This document shows positions 27,351 to 34,577 of a DNA stretch of 64,000 bases, piece by piece. The notes below the pieces were generated by a model, which saw only the letters and a list, made by a program, of their open reading frames with translations, was not told the DNA's origin and did not search any database. The stretch is from NCBI GenBank assembly GCA_019637755.1, contig JAHBVC010000001.1, forward strand, positions 682,001 to 746,000. Reading direction: 5' to 3'. The position numbers were made by a program, and so were the translations under genes. Source of the stretch: Anaerolineales bacterium (GTDB lineage: Bacteria; Chloroflexota; Anaerolineae; Anaerolineales; UBA11579). Each line of letters starts with the position of its first letter. Positions within the stretch are counted from its first letter, which is position 1.

Positions 27351-29972
27351 CTAATGCCCGCCACTTGCCGAAGGCGTCTTCGCCTTGGTGACCCAGGCTT
27401 CCTCGGCCTGCAGGGCGCGTACGGAGCCGGGCTGAATCTTACGGTAGACCTCGTGCGGGGCACGGGGCGTGCCGTCCACTTCCAGCAGGCGAGCGAGCGG
27501 GATGCCAAACAGGCGCTCATTCTCCTCGAGATAGGGCAGGATCAGCGCCCAGTCCGCTTCACTGAGCGGCACGAACTCGCCGCCGTTGAGCTGCTCGGCC
27601 ACCACGCGCTGGTGCGGGTCACGCACGTAGATGGCACCGCCGGAGGCCAGCGAGAACAGGTTGCTGCCCGGGTACGGCGTCTCCAGCTCAGCGATTTGGC
27701 CGTCTTCGTCAAATAGGATGCCGTTGAGCACCACGAAGCCGCCGCCGTTGAGCGGGTCACCCGCCATGAACGACTCAGCCAGATAGTCAAGGCAAGTGCC
27801 ATTGATGACGACGCGTGGCTTGCCGACTGCGTTGATGAGCGGGCGGCCAGCGGCGTTACCCAGGATCAAGGCGCTGCCGCCCTTGGCGCCGTACATAAAC
27901 GTTTGGCCAACATCGCCATGCACGACCAGGCGGCCCGCTTTCATGATTTGCGCCAACTGGTCTTGCCCATTGTTGTGCACAGTGATGGTGGCGCCATCCA
28001 GGCCGGAAGCGAGATAGTCGCCCGCCGAACCGTAAGTGTGAATGTGCACATCCTGCGTGTTGGTGCCGATGCCGTTGCCGATGAAGCGCTGGCCGCGCAG
28101 GTGAATGACGATGATGTGGCGGAAGCCAGCTTCGACGATGCGCTGCACTTCACGGCCCACCGAGTCTTCGCCTTGCGGCGGGTAGCCTTGCGCGTCGAGG
28201 ATGAGCGTTTGCGTCAGGCTGGCGGCTTTGGGCAGGCTGGCCCCATAGACATGATAGACAAAGCCTGCACTGGGTGCGGCTTTGATGGCTGCCATCACGC
28301 GCTCCAGGCTGGCGTCCACTAGCGAGACCAGGCTGCTACGGCGCAAGCTGCCGGTGGGATAGCGACGGTCCATGAGCAGCGAGAGCAACTCGATGGCACG
28401 GGCGCGGCCAGCATCGTCGCTGGCGCTAGCCTCGATGCCGGCCAGGAAGTCTTGTGCCTGCTGGTAGCTCCAGCCCGGCAGCTGGCTCAGCGCCCAGGCG
28501 TACTGCGTCATAGCGTCACCTTGCGGTACCGCCATGGCGCGGGGCGTGTACGCGGCGCGGTCGTAAGCCGTGCGGCTGGTGGGCTGCTTCACGGGCTGGC
28601 CAAATTTGTTGGTGAGCACCAGTTTGGGCTTGGTCTTATAGTCGTCATGCACGCTGAACAAGAACGCGCCGCCATCGGTGTGGCTGCCGCCGCGGGCGTT
28701 CCAGTAACGGTCCGCACGTGACCAGAAGCGCGAGTCCTCAGCGGCCAGGCTAATCATGGCGGCGTCAATACCCTGCTTCTCGGAGGCGGCCATCGCAATC
28801 GAGACGGTTTCGCCGTCTACCGTACTCTCCTGCCAGGCGAAGACTTGCGGGCGCAGCATGCTGGTATCGGTGATGCCGGTGAGGCGGTAGACGGCCTCGC
28901 CCTGCGTGCCTTCATCAGACTGAGCGATGAGGAAGAACCACGGCCCATCTGGCGAGGAGTGGATGTGGCTGCTCTGCAGCATGGAGTAGATGCGCTGCTT
29001 GTCTGCCGGCAGCAAGGTGTAGTCACGCTCGGTAGTGGGAGCCAGCGCCTCGATGACGTACTCCAGCGGATAGTTGTAGGTGCGATACAGCAGGTCAAAG
29101 ACCTGCACCGCTACCTCGGTATCCGTGAGATACAGCGGGTAGATGTTGCGCTGCGCCAAATACTCGCTGATGGAGGCATGGTTGGCAAAATCGCCATTGT
29201 GTACCAGGGCCTCGTTCATGCCGATGAAGGGATGGGCGCCACCCGGGTGCCACACGCGGCCCTTGGTGGGATAGCGATGATGCCCAATCCAGACATGGGC
29301 GTGCATGTCTTCCAGTTGGTAGTAGCGAATGACATCATCGCCATAGCCCACCATCTTGAGCACGAGCAGGTTCTTGGCATGCGAGAGCACAAAGGCGCGC
29401 TTCTCACCCAGTGAGGCGTAGTAGGTAGTGTTGATTTTGAAGCTGTTTTGGTAGACGTACTCATCTTCGACGGCACGCTCGGGCAGATTCATGAAATCAT
29501 GTTCGGCGCGGAAGGCGGCCAGCGCGGCGGCTTTGGGGCGCACGAAGTACTGCACCACATCCGGCGGGCGCACATCCAGGCCGGCAATCTGGGTGTAGTC
29601 CGCCATCTGCGGCTGTTCGCGCGTGTGGTCAATCTCAAACATGGGGTGGATGTATTGCGCTTCCACCTCGGCGCGCGCCGCCGGGTCCATGTAAGCCATG
29701 GCCAGCAAGTAGTCATTGTGCAGCACGTCTGGGCTGACACCGAATTCAGCTGCGTCCAGGCCAACGGCCGCAATGCCGCCGCCCTTGCCGTTGCCGCGGT
29801 TGCTCATCTGCGCCAAGGCGGCCAGCATGTGGCGGGCGGCGATGCGCTCGCTACTGGCCATGCCGATGACGCCGCAGCCACCCTCGGCGGCTTCGTCGCG
29901 GTTGAATTGGGTCAGGTCCGTGCGCGGCAGTTTGCCGCGGCTGGTGAGCATGCGAGTTAGTTCGTTTTTCAT
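27351..29972 (-). CDS. Glutamate synthase: class II glutaminase plus GXGXG domain subunit
   Basis: An 873-residue subunit that should release ammonia from glutamine and channel it to the FMN subunits. The nucleophile Cys33 is in GGCGVIGMASSE, so a 32-residue propeptide would have to be removed, as in classical GltB. Further glutaminase elements are WIGHHRYPTKGRVWHPGGAHPF and LVHNGDFANH. The C-terminal part is the right-handed beta-helix GXGXG domain (DGATITVHNNGQDQ, VHGDVGQTFMYGAKGG). The central FMN domain of a normal GltB is missing here and is supplied by the two genes upstream. AGGAG precedes the ATG. Confidence 0.92.
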   Translation of the reverse strand: MKNELTRMLTSRGKLPRTDLTQFNRDEAAEGGCGVIGMASSERIAARHMLAALAQMSNRGNGKGGGIAAVGLDAAEFGVSPDVLHNDYLLAMAYMDPAARAEVEAQYIHPMFEIDHTREQPQMADYTQIAGLDVRPPDVVQYFVRPKAAALAAFRAEHDFMNLPERAVEDEYVYQNSFKINTTYYASLGEKRAFVLSHAKNLLVLKMVGYGDDVIRYYQLEDMHAHVWIGHHRYPTKGRVWHPGGAHPFIGMNEALVHNGDFANHASISEYLAQRNIYPLYLTDTEVAVQVFDLLYRTYNYPLEYVIEALAPTTERDYTLLPADKQRIYSMLQSSHIHSSPDGPWFFLIAQSDEGTQGEAVYRLTGITDTSMLRPQVFAWQESTVDGETVSIAMAASEKQGIDAAMISLAAEDSRFWSRADRYWNARGGSHTDGGAFLFSVHDDYKTKPKLVLTNKFGQPVKQPTSRTAYDRAAYTPRAMAVPQGDAMTQYAWALSQLPGWSYQQAQDFLAGIEASASDDAGRARAIELLSLLMDRRYPTGSLRRSSLVSLVDASLERVMAAIKAAPSAGFVYHVYGASLPKAASLTQTLILDAQGYPPQGEDSVGREVQRIVEAGFRHIIVIHLRGQRFIGNGIGTNTQDVHIHTYGSAGDYLASGLDGATITVHNNGQDQLAQIMKAGRLVVHGDVGQTFMYGAKGGSALILGNAAGRPLINAVGKPRVVINGTCLDYLAESFMAGDPLNGGGFVVLNGILFDEDGQIAELETPYPGSNLFSLASGGAIYVRDPHQRVVAEQLNGGEFVPLSEADWALILPYLEENERLFGIPLARLLEVDGTPRAPHEVYRKIQPGSVRALQAEEAWVTKAKTPSASGGH

Positions 29973-29981
29973 CTCAGTCTC

Positions 29982-31283
29982 CTAGCCCACATACTTCAGC
30001 AGATCACGGCGGCCGCGCAGCTCACGAATGCTGCGCAAACCCAGCTTGCGCAACAAATCACGCAATTGGATGGCGTAGGCGTTGTACATGTTGATGATGC
30101 GCTGCTGGCCCCAGTCAGCGGGCATAAGTTGCTGCAGCAACGGGTCGGTAGTGGTCAGGCCGAAGGGGCAACCGCGGCCGCGCTCGCAGTTGCTGCAGCG
30201 CGTGCAACCGATGGCGATGAGTTCGGCGGTGCCCATCACGCAGCCATCCGCGCCGAGGGCAATGGCCTTGGCGACATCATAGGCAGTGCGCACACCGCCG
30301 CTGGCCATCAGGGTCACTTCTTCACGCACGTTCTCGCTCACCAGGTACTTGTGCACCTTGGGGATGGCGAACTCGATCGGCATGGCGATGTTCTTCTTGG
30401 CAATTTCAGGGGCGGCACCCGTACCGCCGTACGAGCCATCCAGATGCACAATGTGCGCTCCGGCAAAGTATGAGCCCACCGCCACCATGTCCACATCCGT
30501 AGGCGTGGACACTTTGACCGAGACCAGCGCACGCGGGTTGGTGGTGCGGATCCAATCCACATGCTTGCGGTGGTCTTCCACCGAATACACCGAGTGGAAG
30601 GGGAACGGCGAGAACAGGCTGACCCAGGGCACGCTCTCACGCATGGCGGCGACGGCGCTGGTGGCCTTGTCACCCAGCAAGTGGCCGCCCAGGCCGGGTT
30701 TGGCACCCTGGGCGTACTTGAACTCCACAATCGGCGCGTACTGGATGGTCTCCTCGCGCACGCCAAACATGCCCGTGGCTACCTGGGTGATGATGTGGTC
30801 TTTGTAGGGCACCAGCGATGGCGGGTAACCACCCTCCCCCGTGCTGGTGAAGGTGCCCAAATGTTGGGCGGCGCGAGCACGGGCTTGCATGACATGCTCG
30901 CTGATCGAGCCGTAGGACATGCCGCCGCCATACATGGGAATGTTGATCTTGAGTTGGGCGCCGTCATCGCGGCGGTTGAGCGGCAACGAGAGGTCAATCT
31001 CGGTGTCCTCAGACAGCCATTGGTCTTGGTTGGGAATGTTGAAATCAAGCACATCAAAACCGCCGCCGGAGGCGCCGATTTTGTACTCCAGGCCGTTGTC
31101 CGGCACCTGACCCGTTTCGGCCATCAGCCAGGTAGCGAGGATGAGGTCTTGCGTCCAGCGGCTGTCGCCCAGGGCGGGCGGCGCCTCTTCGGCGCGCGGC
31201 CAGTGGGCGAAGCCGTTGTGCAGATTGCTAATGTGCTTCTCGACGATGAGTTGTTCGTCGGTCTTGTTGGCGATGCTAGCCAT
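29982..31283 (-). CDS. Glutamate synthase FMN-binding subunit with Fe-S cysteines
   Basis: A 433-residue TIM-barrel subunit equivalent to the central/FMN part of GltB. It contains VSVKVSTPTDVDMVAVGSYF, HLDGSYGGTGAAP (2-oxoglutarate/FMN loop), LMASGGVRTAYDVAKAIALGAD (phosphate-binding) and the [3Fe-4S] cluster set CTRCSNCERGRGCPFG. Together with the glutaminase subunit it should form glutamate from 2-oxoglutarate and ammonia. GGAGG supports the start at 31283, which overlaps the end of the upstream gene by 8 bases. Confidence 0.92.
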   Translation of the reverse strand: MASIANKTDEQLIVEKHISNLHNGFAHWPRAEEAPPALGDSRWTQDLILATWLMAETGQVPDNGLEYKIGASGGGFDVLDFNIPNQDQWLSEDTEIDLSLPLNRRDDGAQLKINIPMYGGGMSYGSISEHVMQARARAAQHLGTFTSTGEGGYPPSLVPYKDHIITQVATGMFGVREETIQYAPIVEFKYAQGAKPGLGGHLLGDKATSAVAAMRESVPWVSLFSPFPFHSVYSVEDHRKHVDWIRTTNPRALVSVKVSTPTDVDMVAVGSYFAGAHIVHLDGSYGGTGAAPEIAKKNIAMPIEFAIPKVHKYLVSENVREEVTLMASGGVRTAYDVAKAIALGADGCVMGTAELIAIGCTRCSNCERGRGCPFGLTTTDPLLQQLMPADWGQQRIINMYNAYAIQLRDLLRKLGLRSIRELRGRRDLLKYVG

Positions 31284-32700
31284 TCTTGGCCTCCGTGTAG
31301 CCCAGCAGGCCGGCAAAGGCATCTGCTTCCAAAGTCTTCATGAACATGGCGCGGCCCATCTCGCCGCGCAGGCGGCGCACTTCACGCAGCCCCATCGCGC
31401 CGAGGATTTCAAGCAGCTGATCGCGCCACGAGGCGCACAGGTTCTTGAGGCGTTGCACGCCCCAGGTTGCATTGAGGTTACCGGGCAGGCGGAAGCTGCT
31501 GGCGCCGCGGGCGCTGCACTCGCCACCGAAGCGGGCTTGCAAGGCCACGAGCAGTGGCGTATCCACGGCTACCGCGTCCAGCCCGCAAATCATCGCCTTG
31601 GGCAGGTGCTCAGCGGCAATCATGCCGCCGCTGGCTAACAGGGTCACTTCTTCACGGATGCCTGCGTCTACAAAGGCTTTGTGCGCCTCACGGATCAGGT
31701 CAAGCACAAAGGATCCATCCGCGCTGCGGCCGTGGAAATCGGCCAGCAGGTGGAAAACTTTGATGCCGCGTTGGGCATAGCTAACCAGCGCACCCGTCTC
31801 TTCAAAGCCGGTGCGCAGCGCCACGATGGCATCAGGGAAAGTGGCGGTGATGGCGCTGTACAACGCCTCGTCCCAACCTTGCATCTCCACCATGCGCGGC
31901 GTAAAGCCGAGCTGGCTGAGGCGGCGGGCGTGCTCAGGGCGCAGCACAGGCACCACTGCTGCGCCGTATGCGGCCAGACCCACAGCGTAATCGAAGGGCA
32001 GCACGGCCAGCGTGTCGAGCTCGGCGGCGGCACGCGCGTACATCTGGGCTACGCCTGCGGCCAGCTCATTCTGTGGGCCATCCAGCACGATGGGCAACTG
32101 GATCGAGAGGGTGTGCGGCGTGTTGCCAATGGGCTGGCCAGCGGCGTCAAATTGCAGGAAGTTGGGGGTGTAGCCAATATCCACCACGGTGGAGATGGTC
32201 TCACGGCCGTGGATGCCGTCACGCGTGGGGCGCACGATCTCAGACATGTCGGTCCACATGCCATCCCAGCCCTCGCCGCCAAACTTGCCGCGGTAGCCGG
32301 CGCCGCGCACCGGCACCAGGCCGCTGGAAGCCTCGTAGGCGATTTGGTCTACATAGTTGAACGTGAAGTAGGAGTCGCCCAGGCTGCGGCGCTCAGGGTT
32401 GTGCTCAATGCGCACGAACTCGGGAAACTCGGTGGTGCAGCGCAGGCAGCCTACGCAGTGCTCCTCGCGCGGCATGAAGCCGCCCACCGGGCCGGAGAAG
32501 ACGCCATACATGCACGGGCGGCTGAGGATGACATCCTTGCGCGGGCCGTAGTGCAGTACTTCAGAAATCAGGAGCTTGGCCAGGCCGGCACGGCGCACCT
32601 TGACCTTGAAGCGGCTGGGCCACTTCTCAATGTCCGGCGCCGGCTGCGTGGGAATGTGATAGCGATGATAGGTAGCGGCTGTGTCTCGGTGTTCAGGCAT
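31276..32700 (-). CDS. Second glutamate-synthase-type FMN-binding protein
   Basis: A 474-residue relative of the preceding subunit. The N-terminal 100 residues carry the short cysteine cluster EEHCVGCLRCTTEFPEF. The barrel follows with TVVDIGYTPNF and LLASGGMIAAEHLPKAMICGLDAVAVD, and a C-terminal domain similar to its partner's end (LRRLRGEMGRAMF). The CTRC-type cluster is replaced by FGGECSARGASSF, with one Cys, so it may have lost one cofactor and act as a regulatory or electron-entry subunit. AAAGG precedes the ATG at 32700. Upstream ATGs in the same frame run through the leader terminator and are not favoured. Confidence 0.85.
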   Translation of the reverse strand: MPEHRDTAATYHRYHIPTQPAPDIEKWPSRFKVKVRRAGLAKLLISEVLHYGPRKDVILSRPCMYGVFSGPVGGFMPREEHCVGCLRCTTEFPEFVRIEHNPERRSLGDSYFTFNYVDQIAYEASSGLVPVRGAGYRGKFGGEGWDGMWTDMSEIVRPTRDGIHGRETISTVVDIGYTPNFLQFDAAGQPIGNTPHTLSIQLPIVLDGPQNELAAGVAQMYARAAAELDTLAVLPFDYAVGLAAYGAAVVPVLRPEHARRLSQLGFTPRMVEMQGWDEALYSAITATFPDAIVALRTGFEETGALVSYAQRGIKVFHLLADFHGRSADGSFVLDLIREAHKAFVDAGIREEVTLLASGGMIAAEHLPKAMICGLDAVAVDTPLLVALQARFGGECSARGASSFRLPGNLNATWGVQRLKNLCASWRDQLLEILGAMGLREVRRLRGEMGRAMFMKTLEADAFAGLLGYTEAKNG

Positions 32701-32720: not shown

Positions 32721-32749
32721 AAATAAAAATGGGCACGCAGGGCGTGCCC
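32721..32749 (-). terminator. Leader terminator (attenuator) of the glutamate synthase operon
   Basis: On the minus strand GGGCACGC/GCGTGCCC with a 3-base loop is followed by ATTTTTATTT. It lies only 21 bases before the first start codon, so read-through must be regulated or partial. Confidence 0.85.
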
Positions 32750-32759
32750 ATTAAATCCA

Positions 32760-33140
32760 TCGAGGTCACACCCTTCCATAGGGAAACTACGCAACACACC
32801 CGCGCGGGCGGGTTGCACCAGTGCGCCGCGCTCTGTGCCACCTGTCACCAGGCAGTTTTCTTGCGTCGCTTGTGTTGGAAGGGAGAAACGAAGCCCGTGG
32901 TAGGGCTTCAGAGGCATCCGCTGATTTGTGCCGTTGTGCTTGGCGAAGCCAAGTCACAACAACATCGCTCGATGTTCGCTGGCACGGCTGCCAGCTTAGC
33001 TCCGGACTTTCACCGGTGGCATTGTTTGCACAACACCAGCGCCTTTCGGGCGCAAGAACCTCCACCTCGTAGCCTTAAACGCTCCAGGGGGACGTAGTCA
33101 CCCGCAGAGCGTAAGGCCCAGCCGCTTGTTCTCTCTATTC
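32760..33140 (-). ncRNA. Long structured leader RNA of unknown class upstream of glutamate synthase
   Basis: The minus strand of this gap carries a chain of strong hairpins: GCCTTA-CGCTC with GAGCG-TAAGGC (33117-33072), GCGCC closed by a GAAA tetraloop (33053-33039), CCGG-N7-CCGG (33016-33002), GCTGGCA/TGCCAGC (32995-32978), CGATGTT-type 7-bp stem (32976-32961), a GTTGTG+CTTGGC two-part stem (32960-32933), AAGCCC/GGGCTT (32908-32891) and a GCAAC/GTTGC stem (32815-32791), then the terminator. The core CCGGTGAAAGTCCGGAGCT resembles the cobalamin-riboswitch element, but CCCGCAACTG and the other B12 boxes are not evident. No protein-coding frame fits. Confidence 0.65.
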
Positions 33141-33188
33141 AGTTGTTAACAGGCAAGACTATACCCGTGGGCGGGAAAGGTTGTCAAG

Positions 33189-34577
33189 TCAGTGGGCGGC
33201 CGGCGCCGGAGCAGGCGGCACGGCGCCCTTCTCCACCGCTGCCTGCAGCGCCTGGAAGGCGCGCGGATCGATGCCGGTGCCCACTTGGCCGCGCAGCAGC
33301 GCCAGCGCCTCTTGCGGGGTGAGCGGCTGGCGATAGGGGCGCGCCGCGGTGAGCGCTTCGTACTGGTCCGCCACGGCCAGCAGGCGTGCGCCGGCCGAGA
33401 CTTCGCCGCCGGGCAGGCCGCGGTGGTAGCCGCGGCCATCCAGGCGCTCATGATGGGCACTGGCTACCGCGGCCAGCTCGCTGAAGCCACGCACGCGTTG
33501 CAGAATGCGATAGGTGTATTCGGTGTGCGAGCGCATCTGCGCCCACTCGGCATCGTTGAGCTGCTCGGGCTTATCCAAGATCGTATTGGAGACGGCCAGC
33601 TTGCCAATATCATGCAGCAGAGCCGCCCGCGAGAGGTCACGGCGTTCTTCCGGCGGCAGATTGAGTTCCGCCGCCATCAGGCGCACGATCTCGGCCACGC
33701 GCGCCGAGTGGCGGCTGGTATAGGGCGACTTGGCGTCGATCACGCGCGCAAACGCCTCGGCGATCTGATCCAACTTGTCCTGATCGGCATGCAGAATGCG
33801 ATCGGTGGGTTCGTAGGCACCGATATCGGTGATCAGCTCTTTGGAGGCGAGCTTCTGCCAAAACGTATCGTCATAAGCGAAGGTGTCAAAGAACAGATCC
33901 ACCAGCGAGGGGTCAAACCAGCTACCGCGGCGTTTGCGCGCCACGCGGCGCGCCTCTTCAGGCCCATAGGCACTGTAGAAGATCTCCACCGTTTGGGCAA
34001 AGCCGAGCACCCGGCCAAGCAGTGAGATCTGCTGGCCCTTCTTGCCCAGCGGGTTGCCCTTGCCGTTCCACAGCTCGTCAAGATCCAGGATCGCCTGGGC
34101 GGTATCTTCGGGGAAGCCGAGTTGGCGGGCGATCTCAGCGCCGCGCTCACAGCGCGTGCGGATCAGGCCGCTGGAGAGCGTGGTGGCTTGCAGGCTGAGC
34201 CCCAGCAGGCGGCGCAGGCGCTGGAAGAACGGCTCGCCGCGCCCGGCGCTGCGCAACAGGTACAGGCCGCTTTGCAGCAGGCTGGAAGAGTCGATGCGTT
34301 TGAGTTCCAGTTTGGTGGTGCGATCATCCGCCCCGAAGAGCTGCGTAACTGTGGCGGCGTTGCTGGAGCAGCCCAGATCGCTGAGCAGCAGCGCGTAGAA
34401 CAGGGCGGAGCGCTGGGCAGAGGAGAGGCGCATATGGTCCGCCAGGGCCATGCCGATCATACAGTTGCGTATCGCATGGCCTTCGGGCTGGTCCTCGGTG
34501 AGGTCCAGCGCATAGGTAAGGGCAGAAAGCACTTCCGACAGGCGAATATCTACGGTGTTTTGTTTAGCGTCGGCCAT
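33189..34577 (-). CDS. HD-GYP domain protein, probable cyclic-di-GMP phosphodiesterase
   Basis: A 462-residue soluble protein with two HD-GYP-like halves. The first (about 20-180) is degenerate: EGHAIRN and LLSDLG remain, and the GYP loop has decayed to DELWNGKGNPLG. The second (about 285-450) is well preserved: HSARVAEIVRL, HDIGK (322-326), HTEYTYRIL and HHERLDGRGYHRG (375-387), where the signature Pro is His. DQYEALTAARPYR follows. Metal-binding residues are intact, so hydrolysis of c-di-GMP is plausible, with the N half as a sensor or dimer domain. No GGDEF partner is nearby. Confidence 0.85.
   Translation of the reverse strand: MADAKQNTVDIRLSEVLSALTYALDLTEDQPEGHAIRNCMIGMALADHMRLSSAQRSALFYALLLSDLGCSSNAATVTQLFGADDRTTKLELKRIDSSSLLQSGLYLLRSAGRGEPFFQRLRRLLGLSLQATTLSSGLIRTRCERGAEIARQLGFPEDTAQAILDLDELWNGKGNPLGKKGQQISLLGRVLGFAQTVEIFYSAYGPEEARRVARKRRGSWFDPSLVDLFFDTFAYDDTFWQKLASKELITDIGAYEPTDRILHADQDKLDQIAEAFARVIDAKSPYTSRHSARVAEIVRLMAAELNLPPEERRDLSRAALLHDIGKLAVSNTILDKPEQLNDAEWAQMRSHTEYTYRILQRVRGFSELAAVASAHHERLDGRGYHRGLPGGEVSAGARLLAVADQYEALTAARPYRQPLTPQEALALLRGQVGTGIDPRAFQALQAAVEKGAVPPAPAPAAH

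Follow-up and report, generated by a model that had tools for sequence, protein, structure and literature searches.

A glmS-ribozyme-like leader RNA, with a predicted attenuator, before glutamine synthetase and glutamate synthase genes in Anaerolineae

The window analysed here, a stretch of 64,000 nucleotides from an Anaerolineales bacterium, carries a long gap before a set of glutamate synthase-like genes, and the question that this locus raises is what kind of RNA the gap encodes and what that RNA might sense. An earlier note had described a large structured leader with a terminator before a three-gene glutamate synthase operon, a description that folding, terminator analysis and Pfam assignments confirm. 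The gap extends from an upstream HD-domain gene (ending at 33189) to the ATG at 32700; its length and the distance between terminator and ATG, put earlier at about 490 and 21 bases, were recomputed as 488 and 20. On the minus strand, which carries all the features described below, positions 33180–32703 fold at -220.9 kcal/mol compared with -177.8 kcal/mol (sd 6.4) for 100 shuffled sequences (z = -6.8). The operon comprises a Glu_synthase-related gene 1 (31279–32700, 474 aa, PF01645), a glutamate synthase FMN-domain subunit (29985–31322, 446 aa, PF01645 at 301.6 bits) and a glutamine amidotransferase plus GXGXG subunit (27354–29972, 873 aa), the Glu_synthase domain being found in proteins 1 and 2, and GATase_6 and GXGXG (PF13522, PF01493) in protein 3. 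A likely promoter at 33158–33187 consists of TTGACA (33187–33182), an 18-nt spacer and TATAGT (33163–33158).

When the gap was scanned against Rfam at high sensitivity, a single significant match appeared, to the glmS ribozyme (RF00234) at 33137–32813 (35.4 bits, E = 1.2e-6), covering the model at full length with a 129-base insert. The score lies below the RF00234 gathering cut-off of 37 bits, so routine annotation would miss the leader; a scan of the window at cut-off returned two tRNAs and nothing else. Likewise, an RF00234 search of the source genome recovered only a partial match of 23.5 bits, because the insert defeats fast filters, and no RF00234 match at E<=1 was found before the glmS gene of that genome. 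The earlier note had taken the CCGGTGAAAGTCCGG element as reminiscent of the cobalamin class and had considered a variant cobalamin switch. This did not hold up: cobalamin covariance models gave no match to the leader over cut-off or at E<=10, and CCGGTGAAAGTCCGG is part of an insert within the P2 region, not a B12 box. Models of the glutamine riboswitches (glnA and Downstream-peptide RNA) gave no Rfam match to the leader, and T-box, RNase P and intron readings were ruled out on the same ground. Low-E matches such as DapZ, Ysr202 and the S10 leader are terminator or chance matches, far under their cut-offs.

The leader contains the double-pseudoknot core P2-P2.1-P2.2 with its active-site letters, the P2.2 bulge being at nucleotide 4 and not 6, as well as the P3.1 pseudoknot and the P4/P4.1 domain. 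Judged from this alignment, the window leader is a predicted member of a paralogous branch of glmS ribozymes whose fold scores just under the Rfam cut-off. Hence it is not the orphan that the earlier note had seen in it; two sister loci score over the cut-off, with 41.4 and 39.2 bits. That note had also held that a strong Rfam hit would speak against a new class, which applies to the fold, whereas gene context, nucleotide 4 and expression platform differ from those of glmS ribozymes before glmS.

Relatives were sought first among the neighbours of the operon. Protein 1 had matches in 14 of 24 family genomes, 13 of them clear orthologs and one weak. RF00234 matched at E<=1 before the gene in 12 of 13 gltB loci (the window's own included), with only two (L015 and L026) over the cut-off, and the same ribozyme core is present in all 13; the weak cases were L019 (no match), L016 and L017 (partial matches) and L018 (out of register in the 5' half). 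The cut-off was also passed by two of 18 other loci tested of what we call the gln/glt type, that is, RNAs of this branch before glutamine synthetase or glutamate synthase genes. An exact pattern taken from the core's 3' half was then scanned over 84,980 species genomes, giving 117 stretches, 80 of which were examined. Two of these, from Paraburkholderia (L049) and a member of the Sphingomonadaceae (L091), were without the 5' core and were left out before counting. The remaining 78 contigs, which are the matches listed here, are all labelled Chloroflexi/Chloroflexota, Anaerolineae or a lower group of it. Named carriers among them are Longilinea arvoryzae (two copies), Levilinea saccharolytica and Bellilinea caldifistulae, which makes the RNA directly testable.

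None of the 78 listed loci has glmS downstream. A glutamine synthetase gene follows in 53 (glnA directly in 40, ada-like/EamA/glnA in 12 and EamA/glnA in one) and a glutamate synthase operon in 12; GlnA identity was confirmed by Pfam for two loci. Six short-flank loci show an ada-like gene only (five) or EamA only (one), both of which precede glnA elsewhere, and seven have no gene, six of them ending within 250 nt and one (L070) being a real exception. EamA and Ada-like genes were considered as separate targets and rejected, given the order ada-eamA-glnA in 12 of the 78 listed loci. This regulon of nitrogen metabolism agrees with the earlier suggestion of a nitrogen-linked regulatory RNA. In the source genome (G000; 97% completeness) PF00120 gave no match to a glutamine synthetase gene, and the glutamate synthase-like operon is retained; it follows that the G000 copy of the leader would control only the glt operon and that the nitrogen logic may differ there. 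In four loci (L056, L058, L064 and L084) the genes between RNA and glnA are an AraC-type/O6-methylguanine methyltransferase gene and an EamA transporter gene.

Ordinary glmS-type ribozymes exist alongside this branch. RF00234 matched 124 of 400 Chloroflexota genomes (110 over cut-off). Among the best 30 RF00234 loci in Chloroflexota glmS lies downstream in all 30, and in 60 further loci the first gene is glmS in 53, glnA in five (L192, L194, L206, L212 and L213) and neither in two. Ten genomes contain both a gln/glt-type RNA and a glmS-type RNA before glmS. In five of them glnA lies behind the variant (G191, G223, G334, G366 and G378); in the other five (G135, G183, G271, G278 and G415) an ada-like gene, mostly with EamA, takes this place and the examined stretch ends before any glnA. 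One contig of G334 shows the tandem order variant, glnA, glmS-type RNA, glmS. The model R1, derived from 43 gln/glt-type RNAs, detects at least one of the two types in 232 of 396 Anaerolineae genomes, the gene behind its best 30 loci being glnA in seven, ada-like in 11, glmS in 11 and none of these in one. Within one Anaerolineales family, several glmS-type RNAs (L203, L205, L210, L211, L216 and L213:2230-2429) apparently have no P4 domain; a long P0 helix, in which the 5' leader pairs with the stretch following P3, seems to close them, an unusual minimal architecture.

Altogether 91 RNAs were extracted. Six (L072, L081, L100, L104, L111 and L113) are identical to L016, L022, L020, L018, L024 and L023, respectively, and look like the same genomes as their twins; they were left out of the R1-model and joint alignments and counted in the P0 swap, P5/antiterminator, P0/P5 overlap, AAYTGAATA, 78-locus regulon and strict-terminator tallies. 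The joint alignment held 101 matches and, with one of unknown type excluded, consists of 76 gln/glt-type and 24 glmS-type rows, including L249 and L254, which look like second copies of L093 and L083.

A comparative alignment in Chloroflexota, as the earlier note had proposed, showed that the leader structure is conserved and co-varies in 43 relatives. Over these relatives 96.1% of cells pair in the named structure, its pseudoknots counted, compared with 39–47% for versions slid along the alignment. Both sides have changed in 30 of the 51 pairs, and none of 500 shuffles came as high. Co-variation is found in P1, P3.1, P4.1 and the insert hairpins: both sides changed in four of five pairs of P3.1 (95.5% of cells paired) and in all six of P4.1. 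The letters of P2.1 and P2.2, which are nearly invariant and pair, are supported by conservation and not by co-variation.

The elements of the window RNA are given here 5' to 3'. A conserved AAYTGAATA element, AACTGAATA (33136–33144), lies directly 5' of P0 and is present as a loose motif in 79 of 90 gln/glt-type relatives; a pairing partner for it was sought and none was found. The P0 5' strand GAGAGAAC (33128–33135), upstream of the predicted cleavage site, pairs with J3/4, a helix that RNAalifold proposed unprompted. From the RF00234 alignment, cleavage is predicted between A(-1) at 33126 and G1 at 33125, where relatives have A(-1) or G(-1) followed by GCG. The P2.2 5' strand GCGGCTG (33119–33125) has G as nucleotide 4 (33122), the expected bulge, and pairs with 32923–32919, as indicated by the alignment, the co-variation test and a bulge-shift precedent in the part of PMC7125110 consulted. 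Then come the P1 hairpin (33071–33118; five of seven pairs changed on both sides) and the ACGAGG active-site strand with the P2 5' strand (33058–33070), ACGAGG being found in 76/76 gln/glt-type rows (one gap at A37) and 24/24 glmS-type rows; the G at 33065 is equivalent to G42 of B. subtilis and G40 of T. tengcongensis. The hairpin insert of the P2/P2.1 region (32925–33057), with J2/2.1 AUCG (32973–32970) inside it, has a shorter two-hairpin version that co-varies in relatives. It is followed by the P2.2 3' strand UCAGCGG (32918–32924; G67 equivalent at 32918), identical in all 76 gln/glt-type rows, and by the P3 hairpin (32890–32909), whose loop ACCAC (32901–32897) pairs with CUGGU (32821–32817) in the P3.1 pseudoknot, four of five pairs forming in the window. 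J3/4 (32876–32889) holds the P0 3' strand UUUCUC overlapping the P5 5' strand CCCUUCCA, and the P4/P4.1 domain (32822–32870, by RF00234 alignment) has the conserved purine internal loop (AAAAC ... ACA). The last elements are the P5 3' strand UGGAAGGG (32771–32778), the antiterminator strand GGGUGUGACC (32764–32773) and the intrinsic terminator, AAUGGGCACGC CCU GCGUGCCCAUU plus a U tract (32721–32752).

Bar a few misaligned or odd rows, both types agree at A(-1), G1, C2, G3, ACGAGG, AUCG and GCGG. Among the core positions compared, only nucleotide 4 separates them: it is C in all 24 glmS-type rows and G (65), U (six) or A (five), never C, in the 76 gln/glt-type rows. A wider set of 86 glmS-type RNAs yielded 71 that could be parsed, and all of these have C (67 directly, four mis-parsed and read by eye). 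The gln/glt-type P2.2 pairs C2-G66, G3-C65, C5-G64, U6-A63 and G7-C62 around a bulged nucleotide 4; a rarer AGCGUAUG form (five loci) would pair U4-G64 and bulge A5. According to the consulted part of PMC7125110, nucleotide 6 is the P2.2 bulge of the canonical core, C4G is highly detrimental in a core construct, and a C4A mutant is rescued about 24-fold by changing nucleotide 6 to C, which its authors read as a shifted bulge; in that construct the bulge-shifted double mutants are rescued only partly. By analogy, the natural gln/glt type looks like the shifted-bulge form. Considering that C4G is detrimental and that the double mutants are only partly rescued, cleavage in the gln/glt type may be slow or lost.

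The gln/glt type also differs in what follows the core. A GGAAGG-like P5 3' strand is present in 82 of 86 loci with enough sequence, and 72 of these 82 also have a terminator by a simple finder. A strict finder placed a terminator in 48 of 68 gln/glt-type loci, failing in 20, compared with 7% in shuffles and with three of 26 glmS-type Anaerolineae loci. When the antiterminator (GGAAGGG plus about 10 bases) was paired with the terminator 5' arm, own pairs averaged -14.2 kcal/mol over 72 loci, compared with -12.4 kcal/mol for re-paired loci (-13.0 for the best of 100 re-pairings) and -8.3 kcal/mol for shuffled letters. Judged by these duplex energies, the antiterminator co-evolves with its own terminator. 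Its duplex uses at least one G of the P5 GGG in 60 of 60 loci tested. In J3/4, 81 of the 82 measured loci have one or more nucleotides common to P0 and P5, and 51 have two. Co-variation in P5 is seen at the outer pair (A-U, G-C, G-U), with isolated examples further in (CCCUCCG/CGGAGGG). Through the bases shared by P0 and P5 and by P5 and the antiterminator, these helices and the terminator are linked into a chain in which each competes with the next, exclusivity being judged by overlap and duplex energies.

With glmS-type RNAs included, each of the four modelled P0 pairs has changed on both sides, in an alignment that was fitted to the model; within the gln/glt type alone the cognate mean was 5.89 pairs and the best of 200 swaps 5.84, a weak control because P0 is nearly invariant there. 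P0 is also present in glmS-type RNAs that have no terminator. Its origin therefore does not lie in switching; it was inherited and perhaps later put to use in the gln/glt type.

In some loci (L045:3169-3600, L071:5933-6419 and others) the gln-type RNA is immediately preceded, on its own strand, by a 6S RNA, which RF00013 detects in five of 18 loci. By motif, a 6S-like 3' end was found upstream in 13 of 75 loci; in eight of them it is only 29–47 nt away from the predicted cleavage site and the interval holds no promoter-like pair. Self-cleavage could free the 6S RNA from a 6S-glnA transcript.

What, then, would the RNA sense? We lean, with modest confidence and by comparison of sequences, towards the reading that an Anaerolineae branch of the glmS ribozyme has moved from glmS to ammonia-assimilation genes (glnA and the gltB-type operon) and most likely still binds glucosamine-6-phosphate (GlcN6P) as a sign of nitrogen sufficiency. 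Comparison supplied the fold of the glmS ribozyme, the conservation of catalytic and ligand letters, the link to these genes and the chain of overlapping helices; from these we infer ligand, cleavage and sign of control. The unchanged pocket letters and the kept G1 make GlcN6P the leading candidate as ligand. Cells make GlcN6P from glutamine. The portion of PMC6316151 consulted also describes it as an inhibitor in the classical cumulative feedback control of glutamine synthetase in enterobacteria, and given both properties its repression of glnA and gltB would make sense; in the glmS ribozyme, N1 of G1 contacts its phosphate (PMC10594590, consulted in part).

The P0/P5 overlap suggests a route from cleavage to terminator. 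At low GlcN6P the uncut RNA would retain P0, whose 5' leader strand (with UUCUCC) competes for two C's of P5; the P5 GGG could then pair with the terminator arm as antiterminator and the operon would be read. When GlcN6P is plentiful, its binding and, probably, self-cleavage between A(-1) and G1 would release a short 5' piece, and with this strand lost P5 would close fully, the antiterminator would be lost, the terminator arm would be free and transcription would stop before glnA or gltB. The change at nucleotide 4, with the P2.2 bulge nearer the active site, would tune or slow cleavage. We put this cleavage-driven scheme forward tentatively, as possible rather than probable.

Several other readings were weighed. 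The RNA might have lost catalysis and act as a plain riboswitch, a GlcN6P-binding aptamer working through the terminator without needing cleavage. Nucleotide 4, near the active site and never C in the 76 rows, fits this, given the effect of C4G (PMC7125110, in part), as does the gain of a terminator platform, which is required by an aptamer but dispensable for a cleaving ribozyme. However, A(-1), G1, C2, G3, ACGAGG, G66 and G67 are all still conserved, C5-G64 and U6-A63 restore P2.2 around the bulged nucleotide, a kind of shift that partly rescues activity (same source), and the ribozyme structure is not changed by GlcN6P according to the part of PMC11602151 consulted; we regard the aptamer reading as doubtful. 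A shift in gene association together with a fixed core difference is the usual sign of ligand-changed riboswitch variants. Here the two coincide, with paralogs in the same genomes, and a variant using another amine cofactor, e.g. glutamine or glutamate, would show this pattern too: the coexistence in one cell of paralogs with a single core difference counts against a retained GlcN6P specificity. Nevertheless, all pocket letters compared (G1, C2, ACGAGG, AUCG, G66, G67) are unchanged and nucleotide 4 is, to our knowledge, not a known ligand contact in the glmS ribozyme, which leaves a changed ligand unlikely.

Constitutive cleavage might instead serve processing, separating upstream RNA (6S RNA in some loci) from the mRNA, with the terminator as an independent attenuator. 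The 13 loci with a 6S-like end, including the eight closely spaced ones, would suit such a role, but in 62 of the 75 loci no such end is near and 60 of these 62 have a promoter-like TTGAC...TAnnnT pair just upstream, within the last 130 nt; moreover, the terminator is coupled to the ribozyme fold through P5 and the antiterminator, and we find a processing role quite improbable. A cobalamin-like or wholly new riboswitch class would be in line with the scores below the Rfam cut-off, which few related loci exceed, yet it is refuted as to fold by the full-length RF00234 alignment with its conserved double pseudoknot and by the lack of a cobalamin match, and is hardly credible.

Compared with glmS ribozymes of Chloroflexota and Firmicutes (RF00234), the gln/glt type shares P1, P2, P2.1, P2.2, P3, P3.1, P4.1 and the purine internal loop, as well as the cleavage dinucleotide, catalytic G and pocket letters; with the glmS-type RNAs of related Anaerolineae it also has the two-hairpin insert and P0 in common. 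It differs in the downstream gene, in nucleotide 4, in the new P5, antiterminator and terminator, and in scoring mostly under the Rfam cut-off. All but two of 463 glmS ribozymes in a 2011 survey by McCown reportedly lie in glmS mRNAs. In the consulted parts of PMC2258182, PMC10043782 and PMC6154101, glmS ribozymes are described as regulating genes that make GlcN6P. The cyanobacterial glutamine riboswitches (glnA RNA, RF01739, and Downstream-peptide RNA) act on a similar nitrogen regulon that includes glutamine synthetase and glutamate synthase (PMC2864571, PMC6316151, each in part), but their fold is unrelated to that of this leader, and the latter source, in the part consulted, reports them as restricted to cyanobacteria. 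Enterobacterial glutamine synthetase likewise uses GlcN6P as an end-product signal (PMC6316151, in part), there by allosteric control of the enzyme and here, as proposed, by RNA control of transcription.

The fold is thus known; new, as far as the literature searched shows, are the gene association, the fixed difference at nucleotide 4 and the attenuator, for which we found no description in the open-access literature, most subscription papers lying outside it. That so few gln/glt-type loci pass the Rfam cut-off may be why they are undescribed. A conserved paralogous branch that stands before glnA and gltB and has acquired an attenuator would couple nitrogen assimilation to the supply of amino sugars through RNA. 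If the cleavage scheme is true, the leader would be a case in nature of a ribozyme whose cleavage is reported by an attenuator, would parallel in RNA the feedback that GlcN6P exerts on glutamine synthetase, and would show a way for a ribozyme to become a transcriptional switch. Two paralogs per cell, differing at one core letter and in the read-out of the signal, would offer a natural experiment.

Two further features were seen among the relatives. In members of the ada-EamA-glnA group (L056, L058, L084 and L106), P4 carries an insert with GGAGUUUAAAAAAACUC. The second copy in Longilinea arvoryzae (L070:785-1002) scores 197 bits with R1, has neither P5 nor a clear terminator, and is followed by no more than a frame of 46 codons; it is possibly a decaying copy.
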